From contig LNEW01000188.1 of NCBI GenBank assembly GCA_001464375.1, positions 1 through 36,277 of the forward strand: a stretch of DNA of 36,277 nucleotides, in the 5' to 3' direction. The stretch is from Rhodospirillales bacterium Ga0074136. GTDB lineage: Bacteria; Pseudomonadota; Alphaproteobacteria; Acetobacterales; Acetobacteraceae. Each line of letters opens with the position of its first letter. Positions within the stretch are counted from its first letter, which is position 1. The notes beneath the pieces were generated by a model. It searched no databases, had not been told where the DNA came from, and saw nothing but the letters and a program-made list of their open reading frames with translations. A program made the translations under genes and the position numbers. This document shows, one piece after another, positions 16,034-24,879 of this stretch.

Positions 16034-17254
16034 TCAGGAACGCACGAGGGAGCAGCCGCCCTCGGCCAGGGGGCGGAACGCCTCCTCCCCCGGCGTCGTG
16101 GCGGCAACCTTGTAGTAGTCCCAGGCGCCGCGGGATTCCGACGGCGCCTTCACTTCGAACAGGAAGACCGGGTGCAGCTTGCGCCCATCCTCGCGGATGC
16201 GGCCCGGGCCGAAGGCGTCGTCATCGGTCGGCATGGCCTTCATGCGCGCGACCGCGGCGCGGCCATCGGCCTTGGCCGCCGCCACGCCCATGTCGGCCAC
16301 CGCCTTCAGGTAGTGCAACGCGGCGCCGTAGCAGCCGGCCTGCACCATGGCCGGCGGACGGTCCTGGTTGGCGCGGCGCACGCGCGTGGTCAGCGCGCGG
16401 GTACGGTCGTTGAGGTCCCAGTAGAAGGATTCCGTCAGCAGCAGCCCCTGCCCCGTCTCGAGCCCCAGCGCATGCACATCCACCAGCCCCATCAGCAGGG
16501 CGGCGAACTTCATGTTCCGATGCAGGCCGAATTCGCGCGCCGCCTTGATGGTGTTGACGGTGTCGGTGCTGGCATTGGCCATGCCCAGCACCTTGGCGCG
16601 CGAGGCCTGTGCCTGCACGACAAACGCGGAGAAGTCGGTCGTCGCCGGGAAGGGATAGCGCGCCGCCCCCAGCACGCGCCCGCCGGCGGCCTCCACGAAG
16701 CGCGTGGTGTCGCGCTGGAGCGCATGGCCGAAGGCGTAGTCGGCGGTCACGAAGAACCAGGTGTCGCCGCCCGTGCGCACGATGGCCGCGCCGGTGCCCT
16801 TGGCGAGCATCCAGGTGTCGTAGGTCCAGTGCACCGTGTTCGGGCTGCACTGCGAACCGGTGAGGTCCGACGACGCCGCGCCGGAATTCAGGAAGACCTT
16901 GTTCTTCTCGCGCGCGATGGTGTTGACCGCGAAAGCGACCGAGGAGGTCGGCACGTCGAGGATGGCGTCCACACCCTGGTCGAACCACTGCCGCGCGATA
17001 TTGGCGCCGACATCGGGGCGGTTCTGGTGGTCGGCCTGGATCACCTCGACCGTGAAGCCGCGCGCGCCGAATTCGGCGGCGGCGGCCTGCGTCATCACGG
17101 TGCTGCCCGGGCCGGTCGCGTCGCGGTAGGGGCCGGACATGTCGGACAGCACGCCCAGGCGGATCGTCGTGCCCTGCGCGCGGGCGCGCGACAGTGGCGC
17201 GACCGCGACTGCGGCGGATGCTCCGGCGAGCAGGCTGCGGCGGCTCGTGCCCAT
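16034..17254 (-). CDS. Liv-type ABC substrate-binding protein, paralogue 1
   Basis: Periplasmic receptor (Peripla_BP_6/LivK fold), 406 residues. The N-terminus GTSRRSLLAGASAA...RARAQG is a twin-arginine-like signal. The mature protein begins TTIRLGVLSDMSGPYRD, the family's ligand-loop opening. The DVPTSSVAFAVN and ENKVFLNSGAA-type hinge and the C-terminal GGCSLVRS are shared with the three paralogues. GGAGG lies seven bases before the ATG at 17254. Compared with paralogues 3 and 4, its middle region differs (RYPFPATTDFSAF; REFGLHRNMKFAALL), so ligand preference may differ. It is the copy nearest the permeases. Ligand unknown. Confidence 0.93.
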   Translation of the reverse strand: MGTSRRSLLAGASAAVAVAPLSRARAQGTTIRLGVLSDMSGPYRDATGPGSTVMTQAAAAEFGARGFTVEVIQADHQNRPDVGANIARQWFDQGVDAILDVPTSSVAFAVNTIAREKNKVFLNSGAASSDLTGSQCSPNTVHWTYDTWMLAKGTGAAIVRTGGDTWFFVTADYAFGHALQRDTTRFVEAAGGRVLGAARYPFPATTDFSAFVVQAQASRAKVLGMANASTDTVNTIKAAREFGLHRNMKFAALLMGLVDVHALGLETGQGLLLTESFYWDLNDRTRALTTRVRRANQDRPPAMVQAGCYGAALHYLKAVADMGVAAAKADGRAAVARMKAMPTDDDAFGPGRIREDGRKLHPVFLFEVKAPSESRGAWDYYKVAATTPGEEAFRPLAEGGCSLVRS

Positions 17255-17334
17255 CTACTGTCCTCCCAGGGTGTTGCGGTATCGCCTGGCGGGCGGGGTC
17301 TTCGCGCCCCGTCCCGCCACGGCGTTCGGTTGGT

Positions 17335-18539
17335 TCAGCTCCGGACCAGCGGGCAGTTGCCCTCGGCGATCGGGCGGAAGGCCTCGTTCGCCGGCGTGGT
17401 CTGCAGCAGCTTGTAGAAATCCCACGGGCCGCGGGATTCCGACGGCGCCTTCACCTCGAACAGGAAGGACGGGATCAGCCGGCGGCCATCGGCGCGGATG
17501 GTGCCGGTGCCGAAGCAGTCATCCTCTGACGGTGTCGCCTTCATGCGGTTGATCAGTTCGACGCCCGACGCCTTCGCCGCCGGCACGCCCATGGCGGCGA
17601 CGGTCTTGAGGAAATGCAGCGTCGCGGAATAGCAGCCCGCATGGATCATGTTCGGGTAGTTGGTCGGCGTCCGGCGCACGATGCGCTGCGTCCAGGCGCG
17701 GGTCTTGTCGTTGGTGTCCCAGTAGAAGGATTCCGTGCAGACCAGCCCCTGCGCCGTCTGCAGGCCGATGCCCTGGACGTCGTTCACGAACAGCAGCAGC
17801 GCGGCCAGCTTCACGCCCCGCCGCGTGATGCCGAATTCGGCGGCCTGCTTCACGCAGTTCGCGGTGTCCGCGCCGGCATTGGCCAGGCCGATCACCTTGG
17901 CGCGCGAGGCCTGCGCCTGCACCAGGAAGGACGAGAAATCCGTCGTGCCCGGGAAGGGCGTGCGCACCCTGCCGCACGCACGAAATTCGCGTTGTCGCGC
18001 TCAAGCGCATGGCCGAAGGCGTAGTCGGCGGTGATGAAGAACCAGGTGTCGCCGCCGGCGCGCACCATCGCCCCGCCGGTCGACTTCGCCAGCATGTAGG
18101 TGTCGTAGGCCCAGTGGATGGTGTTGGGCGAACAGGCCGGCCCGGTCATGTCCGCGGTGGCGGAACCGACATTCAGGTACGCCTTGTTCTTCTCACGCGC
18201 GATCTGGTTGACCGCGAGCCCGACCGAAGATGTCGGCACGTCGATGATCACGTCGACGCCCTGGTCGTACCATTGCCGCGCGATGTTGGAGCCGACATCG
18301 GGGCGGTTCTGGTGGTCGGCTTCCACCACCTCGACCGTGAAGCCATGGCTGGCGCCGAACTCCGCCACCGCTTCGCGCGTGCAGGCGACGGAGGTGGGGC
18401 CGGTATTGTCGCGGTAGGTGCCCGACATGTCGGTCAGCACGCCAACGCGAATGGTGTTGGCCTGCGCGCGGGCGCGCGACAGGGGCGCGATCGCGGCGGC
18501 AGTGCCGGCGGCGAGTGCGCTGCGGCGGGTCAGCTCCAT
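17335..18539 (-). pseudogene. Liv-type ABC substrate-binding protein, paralogue 2, frameshifted by a 19-bp deletion
   Basis: A full receptor gene in outline: twin-arginine-like signal (MELTRRSALAAG), N-lobe opening IRVGVLTDMSGTYRD, and C-terminus GNCPLVRS. The frame breaks at about 17969-17985. The N-terminal frame ends in HALERDNANFVRAAG and then runs into unrelated codons, while the rest continues from VRTPFPGTTDFSSF in another frame. Alignment with paralogue 3 shows that 19 bases encoding GRVLGA are missing, which shifts the frame. As written the gene cannot make a complete receptor. The ATG at 18539 has AGGAGG nine bases upstream. The rest of the gene looks intact, so the lesion is recent or an assembly artefact. 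Confidence 0.9.
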
Positions 18540-18611
18540 GGGGCACATCCTCCTGTTGATTGTCGTCGAACCCGGGCGGGGTCTATCCCCGCCCGGGGCA
18601 TCAGGCACGGA

Positions 18612-19859
18612 TCAGCTGCGCACGAGCGAGCAGCCGCCTTCGGCGAGCGGGCGGAAGGCCTCGTCCGCCGCGGTGGTCTGCAGCAGCTTGTAGTAGTCCC
18701 ACGGGCCGCGGCTTTCGGCCGGGGTCTTCACTTCCAGCAGGTAGGCCGGGCAGAGCCGCCGGCCATCGACGCGGATGGACCCGGCGCCGAAGGCGTCGTC
18801 CTGCGTCGGCATCGCCTTCATGCGCGTGACGGTCGCCGTGCCGTCGGCCTTGGCGGCCGGCACGCCCATCTCCATCACCGCCTTGAGGTAGTGCATGGTG
18901 CCGGAATAGCAGCCGGCCTGCGCCATGCCCGGGCGCAGCCCCTGCGGCATGTTCGGCAGCACGCGGGCGGTGAAGGCGCGCGTGCCTTCATTGAGGTCCC
19001 AGTAGAAGGTCTCGGTGCAGACCAGGCCCTGCGCCGTCTGCAGGCCCAGCGAATGCACGTCGGAGATGAACATCAGCAGCGCCGCCAGCTTCACGCCGCG
19101 CCGCGTGACGCCGAATTCCGCCGCCTGCTTGATCGAGTTGATGGTGTCGCCGCCGGCGTTCGCCAGGCCGATCACCTTGGCGCGCGAGGCCTGCGCCTGC
19201 ACCAGGAAGGACGAGAAATCCGTCGTGCCCGGGAAGGGCGTGCGCACCGCGCCCAGCACGCGCCCGCCGGCGGCCCGCACGAAATTGCCGGTGTCGCGTT
19301 CCAGCGCATGGCCGAAGGCGTAGTCGGCCGTGATGAAGAACCAGGTGTCGCCGCCGGCGCGCACCATCGCCCCGCCGGTCGACTTCGCCAGCATGTAGGT
19401 GTCGTAGGTCCAGTGCACCGTATTGGGCGAACAGGCCGAGCCCGTCAGGTCCGAGGTCGCGCCCGACGAGTTGATGAAGACCTTGTTCTTCTCGCGCACC
19501 ACCGTGTTCACCGCGAGCGCGACCGACGATGTCGGCACGTCGATGATCATGTCCACGCCGTCGCGGTCGATCCATTGGCGGGAGATGTTCACGCCCACAT
19601 CCGGGCGGTTCTGATGGTCGCCCACCACGACGTCCACGTTGATGCCGCGCGCCGCGAGGCCGAGATCGGCGATCGCCTGCCGCACGCAGGCGACCGAGCC
19701 TGGCCCGTTCACGTCACGATACAGGCCGGACTGATCATTCAGCACGCCGATCTTGACGGTATTGGCAGCCTGCGCGCGGGCCGAGCGATAGGGCAGCGCG
19801 CCCCAGGCGGCGCCGGTGGCGCCGGCGGCAAGGACGCTGCGGCGGTTGACTGCGGGCAT
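18612..19859 (-). CDS. Liv-type ABC substrate-binding protein, paralogue 3
   Basis: Intact periplasmic receptor, 415 residues from the ATG at 19859 (GGGAGA five bases upstream; the TTG one codon earlier is not preferred). Signal peptide PAVNRRSVLAAGATG...ARAQA is twin-arginine-like. N-lobe: NTVKIGVLNDQSGLYRD; hinge region with WIDRDGVDMIIDVPTSS; middle HALERDTGNFVRAAGGRVLG; end GGCSLVRS. The signal and N-lobe are closest to paralogue 4, but two stretches of 87 and 79 bases are identical to paralogue 2, a sign of gene conversion or recent duplication. It probably delivers a related ligand to the shared LivHMGF core. Confidence 0.93.
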   Translation of the reverse strand: MPAVNRRSVLAAGATGAAWGALPYRSARAQAANTVKIGVLNDQSGLYRDVNGPGSVACVRQAIADLGLAARGINVDVVVGDHQNRPDVGVNISRQWIDRDGVDMIIDVPTSSVALAVNTVVREKNKVFINSSGATSDLTGSACSPNTVHWTYDTYMLAKSTGGAMVRAGGDTWFFITADYAFGHALERDTGNFVRAAGGRVLGAVRTPFPGTTDFSSFLVQAQASRAKVIGLANAGGDTINSIKQAAEFGVTRRGVKLAALLMFISDVHSLGLQTAQGLVCTETFYWDLNEGTRAFTARVLPNMPQGLRPGMAQAGCYSGTMHYLKAVMEMGVPAAKADGTATVTRMKAMPTQDDAFGAGSIRVDGRRLCPAYLLEVKTPAESRGPWDYYKLLQTTAADEAFRPLAEGGCSLVRS

Positions 19860-19908
19860 CAATATCTCCCTGTGGTCGTCTGTTGGCGCCGTGCGCCGCG
19901 GATTGAAC

Positions 19909-21147
19909 TCAGCTGCGCACCAGCGCGCAGCCGCCGGCGGCGACCGGGCGGAAGGCCTGGTCCGCCGGGGTGGTCTGGAGCAGCTTGTAGTAGTCGTAGG
20001 GCGCGCGGCTTTCGCCCGGCGCCTTCACCTCGAACAGGTAGGCCGGCGTCAGCTTGCGCCCGTCCGCGCGGACCGAACCGGGGCCGAAGGCGTCGTCGTC
20101 GGTCGGCAGCGCCTTCATGCGCGCGACGGTGGCGGCGCCGTCCTTGGCGGCGGCGACACCCATTTCCTTCACCGCCTTGAGGTAGTGCAGCGTGGCGGAA
20201 TAGCAGCCGGCCTGCACCATCGTGGGCGGTGCCTGGTTGGGCATGCGCGGGCGCACGCGGGTGGTGAAGGCGCGGGTGCGGTCGTTGAGGTCCCAGTAGA
20301 AGGTCTCGGTCAGCACCAGGCCCTGCGCGGTCTGCAGCCCCAGCGAATGCACGTCGCTGAGGAAGACCAGCAGACCCGCCAGCTTCACGCCGCGGCGCGT
20401 CAGGCCGAACTCCGCCGCCTGCTTGATGCAGTTGGTGGTGTCCGACCCGGCATTGGCGAGCCCCACCACCTTGGCCCGCGAGGTCTGCGCCTGCAGCAGG
20501 AAGGACGAGAAGTCCGCCGTCCCCGGGAAGGGCGTGCGCACCTGGCCGAGCACGCGACCGCCGGCCTGGCGGACGAAATTCGCCGTGTCGCGTTCCAGCG
20601 CATGGCCGAAGGCGTAGTCGGCGGTGATGAAGTACCAGCTGTCGCCGCCGGCACGCACCATCGCGCCGCCGGTGGAATTCGCCAGCATCCAGGTGTCGTA
20701 GGTCCAATGGATGGTGTTGGCGGTGCAGGCTGCCGCCGTGAGGTCGGAGGTCGCCGCCCCCGAATTCAGCATGATCTTGTTCTTCTCGCGCACCAGTTGG
20801 TTCAGCGCGAGGGCGACCGACGACGTCGTGCCGTCGGTGATCATGTCCACGCCGTCGCGGTCGATCCATTGGCGCGCGATGGTGGACCCGACATCCGGGC
20901 GGTTCTGGTGGTCCGCTTCCACCACCTCGACGTTGAAGCCCTGCGAACCGAATTCCTGGATCGCCTGGCGCACGCAGGCGGTCGCACCCGGGCCGCCGAG
21001 GTCGCGATACATGCCCGAGCCATCGCCCAGCACGCCGATCTTGATGGTGTTGGCGGCCTGGGCGCGCGCCGAGCGATACGGCAGTGCGCCCCAGGCTGCG
21101 GCCACGCTGGCGCCGGCGAGGATTCCGCGGCGGGTGGTCTGGCTCAT
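19909..21147 (-). CDS. Liv-type ABC substrate-binding protein, paralogue 4
   Basis: Intact periplasmic receptor, 412 residues from the ATG at 21147, which has AGGAGA seven bases upstream; a longer frame to 21183 adds only a non-signal stretch. Signal SQTTRRGILAGASVA...ARAQA is twin-arginine-like. N-lobe: NTIKIGVLGDGSGMYRD. It differs from the others at the hinge (MITDGTTSSVALALN instead of the DVPTSS of the other three), which lies near the ligand cleft, so its ligand may differ. C-terminus GGCALVRS. It is the first receptor gene after the ATPases. Confidence 0.93.
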   Translation of the reverse strand: MSQTTRRGILAGASVAAAWGALPYRSARAQAANTIKIGVLGDGSGMYRDLGGPGATACVRQAIQEFGSQGFNVEVVEADHQNRPDVGSTIARQWIDRDGVDMITDGTTSSVALALNQLVREKNKIMLNSGAATSDLTAAACTANTIHWTYDTWMLANSTGGAMVRAGGDSWYFITADYAFGHALERDTANFVRQAGGRVLGQVRTPFPGTADFSSFLLQAQTSRAKVVGLANAGSDTTNCIKQAAEFGLTRRGVKLAGLLVFLSDVHSLGLQTAQGLVLTETFYWDLNDRTRAFTTRVRPRMPNQAPPTMVQAGCYSATLHYLKAVKEMGVAAAKDGAATVARMKALPTDDDAFGPGSVRADGRKLTPAYLFEVKAPGESRAPYDYYKLLQTTPADQAFRPVAAGGCALVRS

Positions 21148-21199
21148 GGATCGATCTCCTGAAGTCGCGGCGCAGCGCGCCAAGGCGTGGTGGGCGTCG

Positions 21200-21946
21200 T
21201 CAGACGCCGAGATAGGCGTGCAGCCGGTCCATCGAGGCTTCCAGATCCTCGTTGCGGACCATGTCCACCACGCGCCCGTGTTCCATCACGTAGTGGCGGT
21301 CGGCGACGGTCTGCGCGAAGCGGAAATTCTGCTCGACCAGCAGCACCGTGAACCCGCGGCGCTTGAGTTCGCGAATGGTGCGCCCGATCTGCTGCACGAT
21401 GACGGGCGCGAGGCCTTCGCTCGGTTCATCCAGCAGCAGCAGCTTTGCGCCGGTGCGCAGGATGCGCCCGATCGCCAGCATCTGCTGTTCGCCGCCCGAC
21501 AGCTTGGTGCCCTGGCTGCGCGCGCGTTCCTTGAGGTTGGGGAACAGCTCGTAGATCTCGCTGACCGGCAGCCCGCCCGGTCGTACCACCGGGGGCAGCA
21601 TCAGGTTCTCGGTCACGTCCAGCGAGGCGAAGATCCCGCGTTCCTCCGGGCAATAGGCGATGCCCGACCGCGCGATGACGTCCGAGCGCGCGCCGATCAG
21701 CTCCCGCCCCGCGTAATGGATCGACCCCGAGCGCTTCGGCACCAGGCCCATGATCGAACGCAGCGTGGTGGTCTTGCCCGCGCCGTTGCGTCCGAGCAGC
21801 GTGACCACCTCGCCCTCGTGGATGTCGAGCGTGACGCCATGCAGCACGTGGCTTTCGCCGTACCAGGCTTCGAGGCCCTTCACGACCATCAGGGGCGATC
21901 CGCCCTCCTGGGCAGCCAGCGGCAGGGTGGCAAGGGCGTCAGCCAT
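21200..21946 (-). CDS. livF: Branched-chain amino acid-type ABC ATPase (LivF)
   Basis: Cytoplasmic ATPase, 248 residues. Walker A GRNGAGKTTT, LivF-specific GIAYCPEERGIFASLDVTENL, signature LSGGEQQMLAIGRIL, Walker B LLLLDEPSEGLAP, switch VLLVEQNF. The EPSEGLAP form distinguishes LivF from LivG. The start overlaps livG by eight bases. It drives uptake together with LivG. Confidence 0.95.
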   Translation of the reverse strand: MADALATLPLAAQEGGSPLMVVKGLEAWYGESHVLHGVTLDIHEGEVVTLLGRNGAGKTTTLRSIMGLVPKRSGSIHYAGRELIGARSDVIARSGIAYCPEERGIFASLDVTENLMLPPVVRPGGLPVSEIYELFPNLKERARSQGTKLSGGEQQMLAIGRILRTGAKLLLLDEPSEGLAPVIVQQIGRTIRELKRRGFTVLLVEQNFRFAQTVADRHYVMEHGRVVDMVRNEDLEASMDRLHAYLGV

Positions 21947-22712
21947 GGGCGGCCTCCGTCGCGGGGGCTTCGCTGCCGAGATAGGCGGCGATCACCTCGG
22001 GGTTGCGGGCGACGGATGCGTAGTCGCCCTCGGCCAGCACGGACCCGCGCGCCAGCACGGTGATGGTGTCGCACAGGCCGGACACGACCTTGAGGTTGTG
22101 CTCGACCAGCAGCACGGTGCGCCCGACCGCCACACGCTTCACCAGCGCCACGATGCGGTCCACATCGTCATGCGCCATGCCCGCGGTGGGTTCGTCGAGC
22201 AGCAGCATCACCGGGTCGAGCGCCAGGGTCGTCGCGATCTCCAGCGCACGCTTGCGGCCATAGGGCAGTTCGCCCGCGGTCAGGTTCGCGTAGGTCGACA
22301 GCCCGACATCATCGAGCAGTTCCCGGGCGCGCGAATCGAAGCCGCGCAGCACCGTGTCGGACCGCCAGAAGTCGAAGGATCCACCGCGCTGGCGCTGGAG
22401 TGCCACACGCACATTCTCCAGCACCGACAGATGCGGGAACACCGCGGAGATCTGGAACGACCGGGCCAGGCCCAGCCGCGCGATCTGCGCCGGCTTCATG
22501 CCGGTGATGTCGCGCCCGTCGTAGCGGATGGTCCCGCGCGTCGGCAGCAGGAACTTGGTGAGAAGGTTGAAACAGGTGGTCTTGCCCGCGCCGTTCGGGC
22601 CGATCAGCCCGTGGATCGTGCCGCGGCGTACCGACAGGTTCACGTCGTTCACGGCGACGAAGCCGCGAAACTCCTTCGTCAGGCCGCTGGTTTCCAGAAT
22701 CGCGTCGGACAC
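21939..22712 (-). CDS. livG: Branched-chain amino acid-type ABC ATPase (LivG)
   Basis: Cytoplasmic ATPase, 257 residues when started at the GTG at 22712 (GGGGAG about ten bases upstream). A second GTG at 22757 would add 15 non-conserved residues and overlaps an inverted repeat, so it is less likely. Walker A GPNGAGKTT, LivG-type LARSFQISAVFPHLSVLENV, signature region LPYGRKRALEIATTLALDP, Walker B MLLLDEPTAGMA, switch VLLVEHNLKVV. The signature departs from LSGG (LPYG), which is normal for LivG. It is the first gene of the long transporter unit. Confidence 0.94.
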   Translation of the reverse strand: MSDAILETSGLTKEFRGFVAVNDVNLSVRRGTIHGLIGPNGAGKTTCFNLLTKFLLPTRGTIRYDGRDITGMKPAQIARLGLARSFQISAVFPHLSVLENVRVALQRQRGGSFDFWRSDTVLRGFDSRARELLDDVGLSTYANLTAGELPYGRKRALEIATTLALDPVMLLLDEPTAGMAHDDVDRIVALVKRVAVGRTVLLVEHNLKVVSGLCDTITVLARGSVLAEGDYASVARNPEVIAAYLGSEAPATEAAHG

Positions 22713-22750
22713 GCTTGAACCGCTCCCCTTCCCGCCGGCCTGGACGGCCG

Positions 22751-22771
22751 ATCGCACTTCGATACTGCGAT
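22751..22771 (-). promoter_or_regulatory. Operator-like inverted repeat upstream of the liv operon
   Basis: ATCGCA (22751-22756) faces TGCGAT (22766-22771) with nine bases between, centred about 50 bases upstream of the livG GTG. On the minus strand a weak promoter-like pair (TTGCGC at 22792-22797 and TACATC, partly overlapping the dyad, 18 bases later) lies next to it. A repressor or activator site for the operon is inferred. No cognate regulator gene is adjacent. Confidence 0.35.
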
Positions 22772-22862
22772 GTAGGCGAGGCGCGGTGCGCCGCGCAAGG
22801 CAGGCCCGCGTTCCACGCAGGGTTTTTCCGCAGCCGGGGCGACGGCCCGGCGCCGTTGCACG

Positions 22863-22893
22863 AAAAAGGGGCAGCCGGTTGCCCGGCCGCCCC
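22863..22893 (-). terminator. Intrinsic terminator of trigger factor gene
   Basis: On the minus strand GGGGCGGCCGG, loop GCAA, CCGGCTGCCCC (one G-U pair) forms an 11-pair stem followed at once by TTTTT. It lies 24 bases past the tig stop and before the liv promoter region, so the two units are transcriptionally separate. Confidence 0.85.
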
Positions 22894-22916
22894 TGTCATG
22901 TTGACGCAGCGCAGCT

Positions 22917-24755
22917 TCAGGCGACGGCGGCGGAGAGTTCCTCGGGCGTCACCTGGCGCTCGCTCACCTTGGCGAGTTCCAGCATGAAGTCGACGACCTT
23001 CTCCTCGAAGATCGGCGCGCGGAGATTCTCGGCCGCCTGCGGATTCTTGCGGAAGAACTCCAGCACCTGCTGTTCCTGGCCGGGGTAGCGCGAGGCCTCC
23101 TGGCGGACCGCGCGCGTCATTTCCTCCTGGCCGACCTGGACGTTGTTGGCGCGGCCGATCTCCGACAGCATCAGCCCGAGGCGGATGCGGCGCTCGGCGA
23201 TGGTGCGGTATTCGGCCTTCAGCGTCCCCTCGTCCTTGCCCTGGTCGTCGGCATCGAGCCGGCCGGCCTTGAGATCGGCCTCGACGCGCTGCCAGATCTG
23301 CGCGAATTCGGCCTCGACCATGCCCTCGGGCACCTGGAAGGACGCGCGGTCCGCGAGCACGTCGAGCAGCGCGCGCTTCACCTTCATGCGCGACAGCGCG
23401 TCGTATTCGCGCTGCAGCGACCCGCGGATCGCGTCCTTGAGCGCCGCCAGGTCGGCCATGCCGACGGCCTTCGCCAGCTCGTCGTCGATGGCGACGGCGC
23501 GGCGCGCCTTCAGCGCCTTGGCGGCGATGGTGAAGCGGGCATGCTTGCCGGCCAGGTCCGCCGACCCGTAGTCGGCCGGGAAGGTCACGTCGATGTCGCG
23601 GCTGTCGCCCGGCGCCATCCCGACCATCTGCTCGGTGAAGCCGGGGATGAAGCCCTGGCCGCCGACCTCGATGGGCATGTCGGTCGCCGCACCGCCGGCG
23701 AAGGCGGGCGCCTCGCCTTCCTCGGCGCCGGCCACCACGCGCATCGGGCCGACACGCAGCGTCAAATCCACCACCGACCCGGCAGGGATGGCAATGTCGA
23801 TGACAGGCCGCGCGAAGGCCAGCGCGGCATCGGCGGTCAGTTCGAAGGTCGCGCGGTCGCCATGCGCGTTCAGGCTGCAGTTCGCGCGGGTCGAGCGCAG
23901 GAACCCATCCGCCGAGCGTTCATTGAAGCCAAAATGCGCGCCGGCACCCGGCGGCAGCGTGCCGGCGGCGACATGCGCCTGCACCGAGAGCGTGTAGACC
24001 GCGCCGGGCTTCGCCGGCAGGCCGCCGGGGCGGGCGGCAAAGATGCGGATGAAGCCGGCCTCGGTCGCCGTGCCGGTGACCTTGGCGTCGAAATACGGCA
24101 GGCCGCGCTCGGTGCCGATCGCCGCGACCTCGCTGGCGAGGCCCGCCGAGACATCCACCGACCATTCGCCGGGCACCTCGCCGGGGCTGCCGGGGCGCGC
24201 GCCCAGGCCGACGCCGTTCTTCACCAGGTTCTGCGGCAGCCGGCCGGTGAAGTCGCAGACCAGGATGTCGCCGATGCCGGCGGCGCGGGGTTCGGCATCT
24301 TCCAGCGTGCCGTTGCGCTCGGCGATGGAGGCCAGCGCCTTGTCGATCGCCTCATCCGTCGGTTCAGTCTTGAGGCGTTCGAGTTCGATGCCGGCGAATT
24401 CGGGCATCGGCACCTCGGGCAGCACCTCGAGGTCCATGCGGAATTCGAGGTCAGCCCCCTCGGCGAAGTTCACGATGTCGATCTTGGGCTGCAGCGCGGG
24501 CTTGAGGCCGCGGTCGGTCACCACCTGGCGCGAGGCGTCGGAGACCTGCTGTTCCAGCACCTCACCGAGCACGGCGGCGCCGTAGCGCTGCTTGACCACC
24601 GACATCGGCACCTTGCCAGGGCGGAAGCCGGGCATGGAGACGGTCTTGGCGATCTCGGCCAGGCGCTTGTCGCGCGTGGTGGCGATGTCCGCCGCGGTGA
24701 CGGTGACGGAAAAGGCTCGCTTCAGCCCGTCATTCGCGAGCTCGGTGACCTGCAT
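22917..24755 (-). CDS. tig: Trigger factor with a large domain inserted in its FKBP domain
   Basis: Ribosome-bound chaperone and peptidyl-prolyl isomerase, 612 residues instead of the usual 430-480. Start at 24755 (MQVTELANDGLKRAFSV, typical). Ribosome-binding signature GFRPGKVP at 43-50; N-domain to about 120; FKBP domain begins at about 160 (GDILVCDFTGRL). It is then interrupted and resumes at about 350 with AFAGGAATDMPIEVGGQGFIPGF and ends near 415; the C-terminal helical chaperone domain runs to 612 (FFRKNPQAAENLRAPIFEE). Residues about 174-346 are extra and do not belong to trigger factor. Both junctions are in frame. The gene follows tRNA-Leu, as often in this class, but clpP does not follow. 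The chaperone arms look complete, so it is probably functional. Confidence 0.95.
   Translation of the reverse strand: MQVTELANDGLKRAFSVTVTAADIATTRDKRLAEIAKTVSMPGFRPGKVPMSVVKQRYGAAVLGEVLEQQVSDASRQVVTDRGLKPALQPKIDIVNFAEGADLEFRMDLEVLPEVPMPEFAGIELERLKTEPTDEAIDKALASIAERNGTLEDAEPRAAGIGDILVCDFTGRLPQNLVKNGVGLGARPGSPGEVPGEWSVDVSAGLASEVAAIGTERGLPYFDAKVTGTATEAGFIRIFAARPGGLPAKPGAVYTLSVQAHVAAGTLPPGAGAHFGFNERSADGFLRSTRANCSLNAHGDRATFELTADAALAFARPVIDIAIPAGSVVDLTLRVGPMRVVAGAEEGEAPAFAGGAATDMPIEVGGQGFIPGFTEQMVGMAPGDSRDIDVTFPADYGSADLAGKHARFTIAAKALKARRAVAIDDELAKAVGMADLAALKDAIRGSLQREYDALSRMKVKRALLDVLADRASFQVPEGMVEAEFAQIWQRVEADLKAGRLDADDQGKDEGTLKAEYRTIAERRIRLGLMLSEIGRANNVQVGQEEMTRAVRQEASRYPGQEQQVLEFFRKNPQAAENLRAPIFEEKVVDFMLELAKVSERQVTPEELSAAVA
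23718..24236 (-). other. Inserted carbohydrate-binding-like (phage-tail-type) domain within tig
   Basis: This segment encodes residues about 174-346 of trigger factor. It begins PQNLVKNGVGLGARPGSPG and has GLPYFDAKVTGTATEAG, PGAVYTLSVQAHVAAGTL, FGFNERSADGFL and ARPVIDIAIPAGSVVDLTLR. That order (naming Asn stretch, PGxPG, YxDxxxxGTA, YTLSVxA, then a closing VDLTLRxG strand) resembles beta-sandwich domains I know from tail-like and surface proteins of alphaproteobacteria and their phages. It enters at the beta-turn after DFTGRL, the position of the short DGE(x)F turn in ordinary trigger factors. This is a different loop from the insert-in-flap domain of SlyD. Family recognition is from memory and not verified. 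Confidence 0.6.
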
Positions 24756-24794
24756 CGAGGGACTTCCAACAGCTAGAGAAAACCGGCGGCGCCT

Positions 24795-24879
24795 TGGTGC
24801 GGGCGAAGGGATTCGAACCCCCACGGCTTGCGCCACCGGAACCTAAATCCGGCGTGTCTGCCAGTTCCACCACGCCCGC
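24795..24879 (-). tRNA. tRNA-Leu (anticodon UAG), CCA encoded
   Basis: The minus strand folds as a long-variable-arm tRNA. Acceptor GCGGGCG (from 24879) pairs with CGCCCGC (24799-24805); discriminator A at 24798; encoded CCA at 24795-24797. Anticodon stem CCGGA/TCCGG encloses TTTAGGT, giving anticodon TAG. The T-arm GGTTCGAATCC is canonical. It lies 39 bases upstream of the tig start and is read in the same direction. Confidence 0.97.

Follow-up and report, generated by a model that had tools for sequence, protein, structure and literature searches.

The DNA analysed here (the window; 36,277 nucleotides of contig LNEW01000188.1, assembly GCA_001464375.1, Rhodospirillales bacterium Ga0074136, Acetobacteraceae) encodes a trigger factor (TF), tig, whose isomerase (FKBP) domain is interrupted by a domain resembling those of phage tails. 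The open reading frame lies on the minus strand, with its ATG at 24755 and its stop at 22917–22919, and is organized as listed here together with the adjacent tRNA gene.

22917..24755, minus strand: tig, TF of 612 amino acids with the inserted domain (Pfam; NCBIfam tig, TIGR00115)
24327..24755, minus strand: ribosome-binding N-terminal domain, residues 1–143, signature PGFRPGKVP (Pfam Trigger_N, 5e-40)
24237..24326, minus strand: residues 144–173, including the start of the FKBP (isomerase) domain as far as DFTGRL (alignment to 1w26 chain A)
23718..24236, minus strand: inserted beta-sandwich, residues 174–346, predicted to resemble carbohydrate-binding module (CBM) family 4 and, at profile level, homologous to phage tail domains (profile searches, fold prediction, PHROG)
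23541..23702, minus strand: remaining FKBP domain, residues 352–405, with I370, P371, F392 and Y396 (F408 just past) (Pfam FKBP_C, 1e-8; conserved columns; alignment)
22977..23450, minus strand: C-terminal chaperone domain, residues 436–593 (Pfam Trigger_C, 8e-37)
24795..24879, minus strand: tRNA-Leu, immediately upstream of tig (ARAGORN)

The tig product is a true TF that carries a new domain. It scores 385.8 bits against the TIGR00115 model (cut-off 180.2), Pfam assigns Trigger_N to residues 1–143, FKBP_C to 352–405 and Trigger_C to 436–593, and the sequence PGFRPGKVP is present, corresponding to GFRxGxxP, which we take to be the ribosome-docking signature of TF. The isomerase site can also be traced: PMC6166725 names I195, P196, F217, Y221 and F233 as E. 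coli TF residues that hold the substrate proline, and also mentions H222. The first five align with I370, P371, F392, Y396 and F408, each conserved at the 90% level or above across the 41 TFs aligned, and H222 corresponds to a glycine (G397); in the same 41 TFs an invariant phenylalanine, F352, stands close behind the insert. An initial annotation made from the letters alone had described the chaperone and ribosome-binding parts as intact, and these matches agree. This is the single TF match in its genome (G000; a draft assembly, 93% complete, in 229 contigs).

In the alignment with E. coli TF (1w26 chain A), residues 1–173 pair with 1–172 and residues 350–607 with 175–427, and the insert takes the position of E. 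coli residues 173–174, presumably Asp-Gly, in a turn of the FKBP domain. The annotated interruption of about 173 in-frame residues can accordingly be fixed at exactly residues 174–346 (519 bases, in frame), and its placement outside the flap used by SlyD holds as well, as the insertion point lies ahead of the substrate-site residues I195–F233. Its annotated position away from the active site is putative, with the invariant F352 so close behind it. Among the 17 PDB sequences aligned to the tig product, none was listed with a best stretch running through the insert.

Could the insert be an artefact of assembly, that is, a chimera or a mis-joined read? The draft state of the genome, with its 229 contigs, is all that speaks for this. 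The insert query matches 33 of the 35 genomes of the same genus, all 33 with the same TF architecture, including one that is a single contig (G010), and the architecture recurs in other genera; we therefore rule a chimera out and regard its probability as negligible. Of the two genus genomes without an insert match, one (G009) has no TF match at all and the other (G027) matches only TF residues 1–98. No stop codon was found inside the insert among the TF-embedded copies listed for the genus. In named genomes the window protein matches six loci. Four belong to relatives recovered with the insert region (Roseomonas sp. CECT 9278, Neoroseomonas eburnea, Roseomonas rosulenta and Roseomonas sp. HF4), which identifies the genus as Roseomonas/Neoroseomonas, and the other two to Siccirubricoccus (32% identity over query residues 2–106). 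The insert, annotated initially from this genome, is thus a genus-wide trait, patchy in the family, rather than an oddity of a single genome.

When modelled alone, the insert has a self-contained predicted fold of the CBM4 type, and the closest solved folds (Foldseek) are the sugar-binding modules CBM4-2, CBM16 and CBM22. Searches with its sequence were far less productive: the insert alone returned 0 Pfam families at E ≤ 1 (a setting in which most weak hits are lost to HMMER filtering) and had no match in NCBIfam or among the PHROGs, so that no CBM family sequence model in Pfam or NCBIfam recognizes it. An insert profile (A3) run against PDB sequences gave matches at E 0.024 or worse only (a dehydrogenase, ecotin, an antibody), which we took as chance given their unrelated kinds, and a DNA-level search of phages with 751 bases gave no match.

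Protein comparisons point to phage tails. In the phage collection the sole relative of the window insert is gp49 of Azospirillum phage Cd, annotated as a tail protein (28% identity over 93%, E 2e-4; two records of one phage), and among plasmids the insert matches five records (Azospirillum, Rhodovastum; 28–33% identical), annotated as hypothetical. A profile built from 23 TF inserts and run on 397 genomes of the family matches 72 of them, both inside TFs, where the matches include the profile ends, and in free-standing copies, the best of which reaches 3.1e-31 with this TF-only profile. All six scanned proteins with free-standing copies have a match to a “tail”-class PHROG; in three of them it spans the domain itself, in the other three it lies next to the domain, and one of the six also has Pfam GP46. 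TF inserts and tail domains begin alike, with N, G-A, G-x-P-G and W conserved. By these profile comparisons the insert is homologous to (pro)phage tail domains, which, with the predicted fold, bears out the annotated foreign, phage-tail-related beta-sandwich of carbohydrate-binding-module fold. Such kinship raises the idea that the insert acts on phage tails as a decoy or regulator, which would bind nascent or assembled tail proteins with the same domain and hinder or help prophage tail assembly. Prophage tail genes within the family do encode homologous domains, but no second copy of the domain was found in the 93% complete genome itself and there is no sign that the domain self-associates; we consider this reading very improbable.

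Across the family, the distribution of the insert is uneven. Of 150 genomes sampled across the family, 139 gave a TF match, and among the matches listed the main TF matches through the insert in eight (G000, G021, G061, G063, G086, G154, G205 and G228), while in G217 a second TF, 35% identical, does so. The remaining TFs of this sample were judged insert-free by a broken C-side match, and the ten of them with frames of at least 560 amino acids, a length that could conceal an insert, were read directly and have loops of 6–17 residues and no insert. Eight genera (g1, g28, g30, g40, g41, g53, g61 and g121) include main TFs that carry the insert. Of 24 genomes from other families of the class, 21 gave a TF match, none through the insert, and in 385 class genomes (a few from the own family) the insert profile matched only the own TF and one 402-residue frame without TF ends, in a search that scored the best eight or fewer candidates per genome and that divergent inserts may escape.

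Two trees bear on how the insert was gained or lost. A backbone tree of 60 main TFs, computed with the insert columns removed, requires seven changes of the trait, at least six of them forced by well supported branches, and recovers g28, g40, g41 and g61 each as a supported clade (bootstrap 99–100) with both states. When 43 TF inserts are placed in one tree with 29 tail domains, a single branch separates the two kinds (bootstrap 87; Shimodaira–Hasegawa-like approximate likelihood-ratio test 97), a split that needs one change and is found in 86% of 200 bootstrap trees. L181 and L182, both TF paralogs, were left out of this tree; an approximately unbiased test (p 0.006 against one TF group) on a two-change insert tree with 31 tail rows is void because these two paralogs stood among the tail rows. 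The trees fit one transfer followed by many losses, though repeated gains, or spread between TFs, may be an alternative history. In g28 and g41, many TFs without the insert have loops of 11–15 residues that resemble its two edges brought together (RLV...GGLAEP, compared with the insert edges RLVE...GGLSEP), and some g28 loops (RARPKD...) are unlike those edges. The edge-like loops lean towards loss, yet excision and insertion into a long loop would both fit.

Within the genus, the insert is under purifying selection. Thirteen pairs were run for the ratio of nonsynonymous to synonymous substitution rates (dN/dS) and 11 were used, L007/L008 and L009/L010 having been dropped for misplaced domain bounds; the ratio is 0.043–0.360 for the insert, 0.065–0.181 for the N part and 0.010–0.198 for the C part. 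In one sub-group (L020/L021/L022/L031) constraint on the insert is close to that on the backbone (0.043–0.122, 3 pairs). Between genera, mean insert identity is 22–27%, and 22% between the own genus and others, and divergence this fast makes one fixed sugar ligand doubtful.

The insert also occurs in additional TFs. Five of the 35 genus genomes have a second TF with the insert that keeps a GFRxGxxP-like signature, and further diverged, fast-evolving TF-like proteins carry the insert without the ribosome signature (L141, L142, L143, L144, L187, L188 and L226, from g28, g41, g53, g72 and g153). No insert was seen in L152, the second TF of G205. L152 and L142 (g53) are related second TFs from two species, the one without and the other with the insert, and the trait is therefore unstable in the g53 paralog as well. 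A 1,832-residue frame in G105 (L145:3278-8773; g72) fuses several glycosyltransferase domains to TF N and C parts, from which both the FKBP domain and the insert are missing.

Some of these neighbourhoods bear on whether the insert functions as a glycan-binding module, which would recognize a nucleotide sugar, a lipid-linked oligosaccharide or a cytosolic glycoprotein and couple TF to glycosylation of nascent proteins. The sugar-binding nature of the closest solved folds favours this, as do paralogs that adjoin glycan enzymes: a sulfotransferase gene ends ~40 bases ahead of the TF start in L146, a Stf0-like sulfotransferase (below the Pfam cut-off) and a GT61 glycosyltransferase neighbour L141, and L145 is itself a glycosyltransferase fusion. 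Other paralog neighbours differ in kind, however (a rhodanese for L142, two RTX/Hint-domain genes upstream of L188, an aldolase for L187), no partner is common to all, and by eye the window tig adjoins no glycan gene; we treat paralog neighbours as leads only. Moreover, a fold by itself reveals no ligand, the insert has no Pfam family at E ≤ 1, the genus inserts average 22% identity with those of other genera, and position W254, a tryptophan in 83% of the 29 tail domains, is not kept as one in TF inserts, where the commonest residue is leucine in the own genus (40%) and phenylalanine in other genera (36%). A glycan-binding role is accordingly improbable.

Our best explanation, to which we assign a probability of roughly 40%, is that the insert is a protein-binding client arm derived from a tail-type domain. 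The domain would have been acquired from a tail protein, or both drawn from a common pool, once or a few times in Acetobacteraceae, and then repeatedly lost or swapped. A rigid sandwich might project from the isomerase head of ribosome-bound TF and offer nascent chains, probably those that are beta-rich or exported, a surface to bind before they pass to the adjacent isomerase site, by analogy with what the SlyD insert-in-flap domain does from a different loop. We prefer protein to sugar as the ligand because TF resides in the cytosol, because the insert changes quickly between genera and because a CBM-like fold holds protein in the assembly factor NDUFAF1/CIA30.

Several observations weigh against such an arm. 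The full model has a predicted template modelling score (pTM) of just 0.54, too low to place the direction of the arm, and 7zkq chain A, which the insert fold also matches, is presumed to be NDUFAF1/CIA30. Related species in four genera do without the insert, which argues that it is dispensable, and one gene neighbourhood is seen both with and without it (g28 only). The insert is also usually the fastest-evolving part of TF (dN/dS up to 0.360, versus at most 0.198 elsewhere). Rapid change, presence or absence among sister species and a self-contained predicted fold would suit a tolerated passenger, a self-folding domain in a permissive turn, without function and selected just against misfolding. 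Against this, the insert is kept in 33 of the 33 genus genomes where the site is readable, is constrained about like the backbone in the sub-group noted above (three pairs) and persists in paralogs from which the ribosome signature has disappeared; we consider a mere passenger somewhat unlikely. A broader extension of the client-arm reading, that Acetobacteraceae domesticated a phage-tail adhesin-type domain as a TF recognition arm that then spread to off-ribosome paralogs serving surface-glycan or exported (RTX-type) pathways, would make this a chaperone system reading sugars or exported folds, and we judge it unlikely.

By eye, tig of g28, insert-bearing and insert-free alike, precedes clpP-, clpX- and lon-like genes, as does insert-bearing tig of g41 (insert-bearing genes only); in the window, ABC transporter genes lie 3' of tig instead (21203–24836). 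Farther along the minus strand (16037–21183), four or five similar substrate-binding-protein genes, by eye of the branched-chain amino acid type, stand beside two ABC ATPase genes, and one copy (17338–18608) is split over two frames and may be broken.

To our knowledge, TF is regarded as a chaperone of three domains and nearly constant architecture, and no title or abstract start found in the open-licence literature on trigger factor describes one with an inserted CBM-like domain. Here the isomerase domain of the one TF found in a genome has accepted a domain homologous, by profile, to those of virus tails, a trait that some species have and their sister species lack. These species offer natural with/without pairs for the long-standing question of the role of the TF isomerase head at the ribosome, and they suggest that viral receptor-type domains can enter core housekeeping proteins.

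Compared with known systems, the tig product shares with bacterial TF (Tig, TIGR00115, 1w26) the N-terminal ribosome domain, the FKBP domain, the C-terminal chaperone domain, the ribosome signature and the isomerase residues, and departs from E. coli TF where a 173-residue beta-sandwich stands in place of residues 173–174. Unlike CBM4, CBM16 and CBM22 modules, to which it is 15% identical, the insert has no Pfam match and sits on a chaperone, and any sugar binding is putative. With CBM-like domains of phage and prophage tails (PHROG 5939 and 1419; Azospirillum phage Cd gp49) it shares profile-level homology and a conserved start, but those are virion parts, and the TF inserts group apart from the 29 tail domains. 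NDUFAF1/CIA30 likewise appears to have a CBM-like fold (through the match to 7zkq chain A, presumed to be this protein), though it is mitochondrial and not part of TF. The likeness is a functional analogy, as this complex I assembly factor holds a protein client in a cleft (PMC10910544). In SlyD and SlpA, finally, the insert of ~65 residues lies in the flap, a loop close to the active site, and the FKBP domain is not part of a TF, whereas here the insert is a 173-residue CBM4-like sandwich in another loop and the FKBP domain itself belongs to TF. Yet both designs set an extra domain inside an FKBP domain, and in SlyD and SlpA, as PMC11013033 describes them, that second domain binds clients beside the isomerase.
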